Source of the DNA: Deltaproteobacteria bacterium
Lineage (GTDB): Bacteria; Desulfobacterota; Dissulfuribacteria; Dissulfuribacterales; UBA3076
NCBI GenBank assembly: GCA_003194485.1
Contig: PQXD01000009.1
Coordinates: 1-34,717, forward strand
Direction of reading: 5' to 3'
DNA: 34,717 nt
This document shows, piece after piece, positions 1 to 25,531 of the stretch (positions within the stretch are counted from its first letter, which is position 1; each line of letters opens with the position of its first letter). The position numbers and the translations under genes are program-made. The notes beneath the pieces are model-generated. The model was not told where the DNA came from, ran no database searches, and was given only the letters and a program-made list of their open reading frames with translations.

Positions 1-199
1 ACAATATTTTGAAGCTATACAGATATGGCGACAGAAAAACGGCAATATGAGCATAAAATAGAGGAAAACAGGGGGTGGAATAAGGCTCTTATGACAATGA
101 ATCTCAATAATCAGCATTTCCAGAAAGCCCAGAGGGGCATAAGGCCAAAATTTGGCCGAATCGAAATCTTCGGCTGATATGATTTACGGGACACGCTCT

Positions 200-265
200 A
201 TGGGGGAAACCGCATCGCCTTAAGCGCAGCGTAAGGCGAATGCGGAGGGGGCAAGACTCCCCCAT
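200..265 (+). repeat. Structured palindromic repeat core, copy A
   Basis: ATGGGGG (200-206) pairs with CCCCCAT (259-265), CCGCAT (210-215) with ATGCGG (240-245), and GCCTTA (217-222) with TAAGGC (232-237), leaving the loop AGCGCAGCG (223-231). The loop, the A-rich asymmetry after the first helix and the downstream AAGCCTTAAGAAAACAAGG are shared with copies near 21650, 23290 and 25380. The helix sequences differ from those copies, yet pairing is kept. Whether this acts as RNA or as a DNA hairpin cannot be told from the sequence. Confidence 0.65.
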
Positions 266-351
266 GTCAAAAGCCTTAAGAAAACAAGGGGCTGAAGTGT
301 GAAGTGAAAAGAAATATCCCCTTCCCGTGAACGGTTTGCGGAATGGACTAC

Positions 352-13901: not shown

Positions 13902-14017
13902 CCCCCTGGCGGTAGGCAGCTTTTTTCGGGTTTCAACCGCGGGCGGATTGCACCAAAATGGGTATTTGCACCGGATTATGCTTTGAAACCCGAAAAAAGC
14001 TGCCTACCGCCAGGGGG
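13902..14017. repeat. Perfect 35-bp inverted repeat with conserved loop core
   Basis: Bases 13902-13936 and 13983-14017 are perfect reverse complements. The 46-base loop between them contains CCGCGGGCGGATTGCACC. The inner end of the arms plus the loop (GGGTTTCAACCGCGGGCGG) matches the core of the repeats at 21374, 22922 and 25129, while the outer arm sequence is different. The element fills the convergent gap between the TPR gene and the minus-strand YkgJ-like gene and could also stop transcription from both sides. Confidence 0.8.
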
Positions 14018-21373: not shown

Positions 21374-21569
21374 GTAAATATTCGGTGAACCCGTGGTCCA
21401 CTGTGGAAGTTGCCATCCGTGCCCTGCCGCAGGAGCGGTTTACCTTTTGCAGGGTTTCGATCGCGGGCCGGATTGCACTGCCTCTCCGGTCTGCGATGAG
21501 TGAGCTTTGAAACTCGGAAAAAGGCAAACCGCTTCAAGGCAGGATATAATGGGTTCACCGAATATTTAC
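21374..21569 (-). repeat. 195-bp palindromic repeat unit with 19-bp inverted ends
   Basis: GTAAATATTCGGTGAACCC (21374-21392) and its exact reverse complement (21551-21569) bound the unit. Inside, a second inverted repeat around GGAGCGGTTT and AAACCGCTTC surrounds a core with CGCGGGCCGGATTGCAC. It is the reverse orientation of the units at 22922 and 25129. It lies between the binding-protein gene and kdsD and has no open frame of note. Confidence 0.75.
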
Positions 21570-21574
21570 TTTTA

Positions 21575-21799
21575 TGCAACCGGTCACAGGGTATTTCTTC
21601 TGGAAACGATTTGCGTCAGCCCTGTAGTTTTCTTGGCCTTTGCTGCAAGGGAAACCCAGGCTCCGGAGCGCAGCGGAGGAGAACGGGGAGGGTCCCATGC
21701 TTACAAAGGCCTTAAGAAAACAAGGGGCGAGAGCATGTTGGAAGAAGGAGCGCCCTGTGACCGGTTACCAGTGGGCCACGGGTTCATAAGAATATTTAC
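21575..21799 (+). repeat. Structured palindromic repeat, copy B
   Basis: AACCGGTCACAGGG near 21578 pairs with CCCTGTGACCGGTT near 21754. GTTTTCTT..GGCCTTT pairs with AAAGGCCTTAAGAAAAC. The cap at 21645-21700 has the shared core CTCCGGAGCGCAGCGGAG followed by GAACGGGGAGGG. It directly follows the unit at 21374 and ends in GGGTTCATAAGAATATTTAC. The same composite order is found at 25129-25531. Confidence 0.75.
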
Positions 21800-21820
21800 A
21801 TTTTATACAATACACAGGGC

Positions 21821-22921: not shown

Positions 22922-23116
22922 GTAAATATCCGGTGAACCCGTTATATCCTGCCTTGGAGCGGTTACCTTTTTCCGGGTTTCAAAGCTCACTCATCGCAGA
23001 CCGGAGAGGCAGTGCAATCCGGCCCGCGGTTGAAACCCTGCAAAAGGCAAACCGCTCCTGCGGCAGGGCACGGATGGCAACTTCCACAGTGGACCACGGG
23101 TTCACCGAATATTTAC
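22922..23116 (+). repeat. 195-bp palindromic repeat unit with 19-bp inverted ends
   Basis: GTAAATATCCGGTGAACCC (22922-22940) and GGGTTCACCGAATATTTAC (23098-23116) are inverted ends with one mismatch. The interior carries the inverted pair around GGAGCGGTTACC and GGCAAACCGCTCC and the core GCAATCCGGCCCGCGG. It is the opposite orientation of 21374-21569. The flanks AAAAAGAC and AAAAAACC match at 6 of 8, a weak hint of a target duplication. Confidence 0.75.
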
Positions 23117-23176
23117 AAAAAACCATGTTATATAGTTGCCCTTACAACAAAACAAGGATTTCAGGTAATTGTTCAT

Positions 23177-23445
23177 TATGACTATTGAGTTAGCTCCGCA
23201 TCATATGCTAATTATAACGGGATTATTGGGTAATCATCCCTTGGAGCGACTTGCGGAAGTCCCGCAGTTTTCCTGGCTTTTGCAGTATGGGAAACCCTGG
23301 CTCCGAAGCGCAGCGGAGGAGAACAGGGAGGGTCCCATGCTGCAAAAGCCTCAGAAAACAAGGGATGAGAGCATTGGAGGGACAAGGGATGATTACCCAA
23401 TAATCAAAGACTATATATCGAAGCGGAGCTAACTCAATAGTCATA
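23177..23445. mobile_element. MITE-like element, copy D, with terminal inverted repeats and target duplication
   Basis: The 269-bp element is bounded by perfect 23-bp terminal inverted repeats (23177-23199 and 23423-23445, beginning TATGACTATTGAG). It is flanked directly on both sides by TTGTTCAT (23169-23176 and 23446-23453), an 8-bp target duplication. A second perfect 23-bp inverted pair lies inside (23221-23243 and 23383-23405). The centre holds the shared core: CCCTG/CAGGG and CTCCG/CGGAG helices around AGCGCAG (23295-23328). It has no transposase, so movement would need an enzyme from elsewhere. It sits between the 22922 unit and ssb. Confidence 0.8.
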
Positions 23446-23501
23446 TTGTTCATTAGGTGTAGTATGGGTCAATGCTTATGGCTGAAAGGGAGGTTAAGGA
23501 C

Positions 23502-25128: not shown

Positions 25129-25531
25129 GTAAATATTCTTATGAACCCGTTATATTCTGCCTTGAAGCGGTTCGCCTTTTTTCGGGTTTCAAAGCTCACT
25201 CATCGCAGACCGGAGAGGCAGTGCAATCCGGCCCGCGATCGAAACCCTGCAAAAGGCAAACCGCTTCTGCGGCAAGGCACTGATGGCAACTTCAAAGCAC
25301 AATGGATATAACCGATCACAGGATGCTTCTTCTGGAAACGATTTGCGTTAGCCCTGTAGTTTTCTTGGCCTTTGCAGCATGGGAAACCCCGGCTCCGGAG
25401 CGCAGCGAAGGAGAACGGGGAGGGTCCCATGCTTACAAAGGCCTTAAGAAAACAAAGGGCGAGAGCATGTTGGAAGAAGAGGCACCCTGTGATCGGTTAC
25501 CAGTGGACCACGGGTTTATAAGAATATTTAC
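25129..25531 (+). repeat. Composite palindromic repeat, copy C
   Basis: The left end GTAAATATTCTTATGAACCCG (25129-25149) and the right end at 25511-25531 are inverted with one mismatch. The left half (to about 25310) matches the unit at 22922 but lacks its right end. The right half is the structured repeat, with GATCACAGG near 25313 and CCCTGTGATC near 25487 as arms, and a cap GCATGGGA (25377-25384) with TCCCATGC (25425-25432), CCCCG/CGGGG, and CTCC/GGAG around AGCGCAGCG. Flanks ATCACAAG and ATCCCAGG match at 6 of 8. It fills the gap before the CCA-type gene. Confidence 0.78.

Follow-up and report, generated by a model that had tools for sequence, protein, structure and literature searches.

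The window, the whole stretch of 34,717 nucleotides analysed here, is contig C9:1-34717 of a 2.55-Mb Desulfobacterota genome (G000) assembled in 87 contigs. It contains several short elements of subfamilies A1, A2 and A4, each with a structured core, together with a second palindromic repeat, designated B. The features are located as follows:

23169-23176, no strand: left target-site duplication of the A2 element, TTGTTCAT
23177-23445, plus strand: subfamily A2 MITE, 269 bp, with terminal inverted repeats (TIRs) TATGACTATTGAGTTAGCTCCGC...GCGGAGCTAACTCAATAGTCATA; contains the copy at 23287-23338
23242-23378, plus strand: A2 structured core, matched by covariance models R1 and R2, with 23287-23338 as the inner portion
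23446-23453, no strand: right target-site duplication of the A2 element, TTGTTCAT
21576-21768, plus strand: A1 element, TIRs GCAACCGGTCACAGGG...CCCTGTGACCGGTTAC; core at 21602-21740
21374-21570, minus strand: B-type repeat adjoining the A1 element at 21576-21768
25308-25500, plus strand: A1 element nested in a B element; core at 25334-25472
25129-25531, plus strand: B-type repeat with ends GTAAATATTCTTATGAACCCGT / ACGGGTTTATAAGAATATTTAC and an A1-filled site
22922-23116, plus strand: B-type repeat without A1, with the corresponding empty site CACAGTGGACCACGGG
198-340, plus strand: A4-type copy, 5'-truncated; core from about 201 to 304, TIR remnant GTGAACGGTTTGC at 328-340

A sequence-only reading of this DNA had described four copies of a structured core with helices that change in step. 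All four were found where they had been placed, each with the loop AGCGCAG, and the helices were confirmed: CCCTG/CAGGG and CTCCG/CGGAG in 23287-23338, CCCCG/CGGGG at 25387-25420, and CCGCAT/ATGCGG and GCCTTA/TAAGGC in 210-245. However, 93% identity between the copies at 21578 and 25310 reduces the four to about three independent observations, and the case for a family therefore rests on many further copies. The copy given as 200-265 is present but truncated on its 5' side; the family match starts at about 198-204, and the preceding bases belong to another repeat. Also, the 52 bases of the core as first delimited are only the inner part of an element of 190-270 bp, the whole of which forms one long hairpin. 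The segment 23174-23448 has a folding energy of -152 kcal/mol (z -15), which none of 200 shuffles equalled, and 21578-21801 has one of -107 kcal/mol (z -7.7), again with no equally stable shuffle. The genome-wide covariance-model search that the same reading had proposed, with a model from 47 copies, yielded at least 70 cores in G000; all 70 scored places matched, and 70 is a lower bound for a genome of 2.55 Mb. The copies in G000 are mostly intergenic and near genes.

Several neighbouring repeats were observed. The B repeat (21374-21570, 22922-23116, 25129-25531) has ends GTAAATATTC...GAATATTTAC, occurs in both orientations, is also GTAA-ended and receives insertions of A1 elements. At 13902-14017 of the window, a perfect inverted repeat of 35 nt with a 46-nt gap has CTTTTTTCGGGTTTCAAAGC in common with the B repeat. 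At 72-201 lies a 130-bp repeat with 99% identity to L066:1318-1447 and the terminus ...GGGACACGCTCTA. It adjoins the core element of the window, which it truncates, and does the same to an A2 element in L066; it probably represents one end of a different mobile element. At five further loci of this study (L005, L008, L022, L023 and L024), A4 and A1 cores are adjacent in a composite of about 410 bp, which has itself been multiplied.

The repeats, which belong to a large family in sulfate-reducing bacteria, are almost certainly MITEs, i.e. non-autonomous DNA transposons. They are short (190-270 bp), lack a transposase gene and have inverted repeats at both ends. The A2 element at 23177-23445 is flanked by a perfect 8-bp duplication, TTGTTCAT, as are 10 of the 12 two-ended A2 copies in G000 by duplications of the same length and quality. 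In the 8-bp register, mean flank identity was 0.91 for A2 (0.44 for shuffled partners), 0.74 for the G042 set (0.30 shuffled) and 0.46 for the A1/A4 set (0.28 shuffled), the last being a mixed set with many nested or rearranged copies; register lengths other than 8 bp gave no comparable excess over shuffles. The A1 element at 25308-25500 has a duplication identical at six of eight positions (CAATGGAT at 25300-25307, CAGTGGAC at 25501-25508). Further 8-bp duplications were found in G380 and G003 (8/8 each) and in G416 and G010 (7/8 each), and none was found on searching the elements of G126 and G077. In addition, the empty and the filled B site both lie inside the window (22922-23116 and 25129-25531 respectively).

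The ends of the elements point to the IS66 family. Published IS66 ends begin with GTAAGCG and are accompanied by 8-bp repeats (PMC11946415), and ISDge4, of the ISBst12 group, has the ends GTGACTACTCAGCA / GTAACTGCTCAGCA with an 8-bp repeat (PMC12898284). The ends of the G042 elements, GTATCTATTCAGCG / GTAACTGTTCAGCG, are almost identical to those of ISDge4. Relatives in other genomes mostly show GTAAC...GTTAC ends, an IS66-family signature. The GTAA start is present in A1, A4, G003, G010, G042, G380 and G416, and is missing from A2 (TATGAC), G126 and G077. An IS66 transposase gene (PF03050) on contig C59 of G000 has the left end GTAACTTCTCAATAAG; the right-hand counterpart of this end is on contig C34, where it follows a second PF03050 fragment and a gene with a DruA domain. 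The same GTAACTTCTCAATAAG repeat bounds four core-bearing loci (L123, L138, L141 and L149) of the sister-genus genome G010. Thus, an IS66-type transposase appears to be the most likely mover. Because the 8-bp duplication was not found in G126 and G077, other transposases may move the core there.

At the C34 and C59 loci (L119 and L120), the IS66 transposase is followed by the DruA-domain gene between GTAACTTCTCAATAAG ends, and the transposase frame is interrupted between C34 and C59; the same IS66-DruA neighbourhood occurs in G003. DruA-family genes (PF14236) were considered as movers and rejected: they are present in six of 11 genomes, outside the element ends except in the IS66-DruA stretch of G000. 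A separate coreless family of short repeats in G000 (L097, L099, L109) has the textbook IS66 start, GTAAGCGTTCACAGGG, at its ends and an internal CCTGCCTGCCGGCAGGCAGG palindrome. No IS66 transposon with A1 or A2 ends was found in the loci of G000 or of its relatives. A PF03050 gene was found in one of nine other core-carrying assemblies and not in the remaining eight. Transposases frequently drop out of such assemblies.

Within G000 alone, at least four different pairs of ends enclose the same core. It was also found in another genus (G010), in another family of the order (G042, 27 copies) and in further families of Desulfobacterota represented by G380 (32 matches), G126, G077, G176, G416 and G054. 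A second covariance model matched at least 13 of 395 sampled Desulfobacterota genomes at E values of 1e-4 or better; eight candidates were scored per genome, and 13 is a lower bound. At least 10 families carry the core, including that of G042, two of them (those of G335 and G386) less certainly; the matches in G335 and G386 score lower and were left out of the covariation test. A weak match in G170 was set aside as doubtful, as its loops do not correspond. A motif pattern search gave named-genome matches only in SEEP-SRB2-type relatives, and no match among virus contigs. In the G042 copies, conservation is limited to the motif (T)AGTTTTTCTTGGC...GCCTTAGAAAACAAG and to the GGAGTGAC / CGGAACGG outer loops; their inner helices are unrelated. 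Because the core lies between different ends in one genome and occurs in at least 10 families, it is apparently older than its present terminal repeats. In G380 (e.g. L201, L195 and L174), cores also occur as head-to-head pairs about 150-350 bp apart, which suggests a larger element with two opposed cores.

The core, of about 140 nt, is predicted to fold into one long unbranched arm with sequence-conserved internal loops. Among the 47 copies of the G000 set, double changes were seen in 18 of 40 predicted pairs. That covariation would hold with more copies had been named beforehand as the point on which the idea of a selected structure could fail, and once copies were added it proved overwhelming: in a phylum set of 27 divergent, sequence-aligned copies, both sides had changed in 27 of 35 pairs. 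In the latter set, 229 cells were compensated (75.6 in shuffles), the covariation score was 0.646 (0.205 shuffled) and 93.8% of cells were paired (70.0 shuffled); none of 500 shuffles reached the observed values. These shuffles ignore relatedness, whereas controls in which the partner was slid by 1-3 columns do not, and the latter gave only 9-14 pairs with a score that fell to about 0.1. Individual pairs showed up to six standard pair types. Model R2 also recovered copies from outside its training set with the same fold, in G334 (2.4e-24), G405, G346 and G327. In one G327 copy (L248), the apical hairpin carries an 89-nt self-folding insert while the remaining core is intact. The fold is very probably under selection, and it is the fold and the loop letters, not the helix letters, that selection appears to preserve.

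Imperfect palindromes are known to undergo template switching, which would itself yield paired changes; in that case the helix changes would reflect mutation bias through self-correction of a quasi-palindrome, with nothing selected. The helices do sometimes change blockwise, and A4 copies exist with either apical helix. However, such correction should erase asymmetric internal loops, yet on each strand these loops retain their letters even between distant families. Furthermore, the compensations occur at single sites, with many pair types and at most positions, and a strand bias, described below, is present. Template switching as the whole explanation is thus very unlikely.

Fixation of loop letters, for example AGGGGG, GAA and AAG, amounts to 81-100%. 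The letters fixed within internal loops are GGAGTGAC, the A of AAG, the GAA preceding the returning strand, and AGGGGG. Averaged over all columns, conservation is only slightly greater in loops than in helices (0.73 vs 0.70), since certain helix pairs are fixed too; the difference is between fixed loop letters and the freely compensating helix positions next to them. On the motif strand of the divergent set, 50 G.U pairs were counted against 17 A.C, and the excess remained (36 vs 16) for pairs predicted from both strands; in the G000 set, pairs predicted from both strands were even (23 vs 21). Also, the motif strand out-folds its complement in 25 of the 27 divergent copies. The bias favours one strand, and the fold therefore matters on that strand. 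Such a one-strand fold suits RNA, or a defined single strand of DNA, better than a double-stranded cruciform.

The same MITEs could carry a fold that acts as DNA, i.e. a single-stranded hairpin or cruciform formed during replication or transposition that serves, for example, as a protein landing site or in avoidance of hairpin nucleases. No promoter would be necessary in that case, no bias relative to genes would be expected, and G.T pairs are tolerated in DNA too. In addition, 46 of 47 G000 copies have the apical loop GC-GNA-GC (GCGCAGC in 35, GCGAAGC in 10 and GCGTAGC in one), an unusually stable DNA mini-hairpin. However, this loop is confined to the genus and is not kept beyond it, and it was therefore rejected as a general sign of a DNA hairpin. 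The G.U excess and the better-folding strand also indicate one definite strand, whereas IS66-type transposition is thought to be double-stranded. A DNA fold is accordingly somewhat unlikely, and we lean towards RNA as the folded molecule.

Orientation relative to neighbouring genes showed no preference, with 17 copies co-directional in sense, 16 antisense, 12 divergent and 10 convergent. This is expected for a selfish element and lends no support to transcription of one strand. No promoter-like site was found on the motif strand within or near the A2 element, and because a promoter of its own is not apparent, read-through from outside promoters is proposed. The core could instead be a cis-acting mRNA element, i.e. 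a terminator, stabiliser or regulator that transposition has distributed and that is retained because it affects nearby genes; the position of most copies between and close to genes would fit, and both co-transcription of MITE hairpins with mRNAs and sRNAs arising from such hairpins are known (PMC10969869, PMC5896051). Against this, the copies prefer neither sense orientation nor any position although the fold is strand-specific, and a cis-acting role is distinctly improbable. The neutral orientation of the copies speaks in favour of a gain for the element itself and against selection as a gene-regulatory leader.

The sequence-only reading had suggested kinship with the guide RNAs of IS200/IS605-like elements, and a guide-type RNA of such an element, or of an IscB/HEARO-like one, would likewise be an RNA-like structured segment tied to mobile elements. 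IS200/IS605 elements are not known to have two-sided terminal inverted repeats or target duplications. HEARO is an Rfam family. The present elements contradict that kinship on several points: they have TIRs on both sides and 8-bp duplications, the TnpB-type domain PF07282 is absent from G000, the proposed comparison with Rfam families such as HEARO gave zero matches, and the fold is a single unbranched arm and not a multi-helix scaffold. A guide RNA is therefore extremely improbable. The broader part of the same proposal, an undescribed structured segment of a mobile element, was borne out by the terminal repeats, the 8-bp duplications, the covariation and the blank Rfam result.

A mechanism can be proposed on this basis. 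An IS66-family transposase would move the elements in trans, cutting at GTAA-type terminal repeats and leaving 8-bp duplications. The core of about 140 nt inside the MITE would fold as a single strand into one arm and would act as RNA, transcribed from any promoter that happens to lie upstream of the insertion. Most likely, the core would have a protein or processing partner, either binding a protein of the host or of the element or undergoing RNase III-type processing, and its function would be to aid persistence of the element. Taken as a whole, the elements are probably IS66-type non-autonomous MITEs that carry a selected folded core acting as RNA. More tentatively, the cores may constitute a new class of structured RNA that non-autonomous transposons carry throughout Desulfobacterota, in the form of a module of about 140 nt that passes between different ends, is conserved in its shape and loop letters only, and is advantageous through a specific protein partner.

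MITEs are usually seen as decayed transposon ends around a filler middle; here the middle is the conserved part, and it is conserved by shape. The persistence of that shape throughout a phylum and within different ends implies that an element without a protein has a function under selection. The core is also a concrete RNA (or DNA) bait for a partner search. A covariance model now exists for this unlisted family, which, among relatives of SEEP-SRB2, numbers dozens of copies per genome; SEEP-SRB2 is a group that partners with methane-oxidising archaea. In Rfam, neither the G000 copies nor the divergent ones gave a match above the gathering threshold or a meaningful one at a relaxed threshold. 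MITE transcripts that fold as hairpins, and sRNAs derived from MITEs, are already known (PMC10969869, PMC5896051), and the literature yielded no core described as covarying throughout a phylum and in elements with different ends.

Among known systems, the guide RNAs of HEARO/IscB and TnpB are likewise structured segments associated with mobile elements, but differ from the present elements, which have two-sided ends, duplications, a single-arm fold and no TnpB-type domain. The IS66 family (including the ISBst12 group and ISDge4) and the MITEs derived from it share the GTAA/GTAAGCG ends and 8-bp duplications; the G042 ends are near-identical, and one end of the PF03050 transposase matches the core elements of G010. 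In contrast to IS66, the elements here have no coding capacity and carry a structured core that is absent from IS66 transposon ends; the A2 ends read TATGAC, and the transposase is missing from most of the carrier assemblies tested. QMITE1 and QMITE2 of Coxiella burnetii are similar in having about 50 copies per genome and a hairpin spanning the whole element, and some of their copies are expressed as sRNA (PMC5896051). They are a per-species family, whereas the core described here covaries phylum-wide and between different ends. REP/BIME, ERIC and Correia-type repeats are short, intergenic, multi-copy palindromes that form hairpins. The core elements are likewise short, intergenic, multi-copy hairpins, but their core is much longer, keeps its asymmetric loops conserved and shows deep compensatory change.
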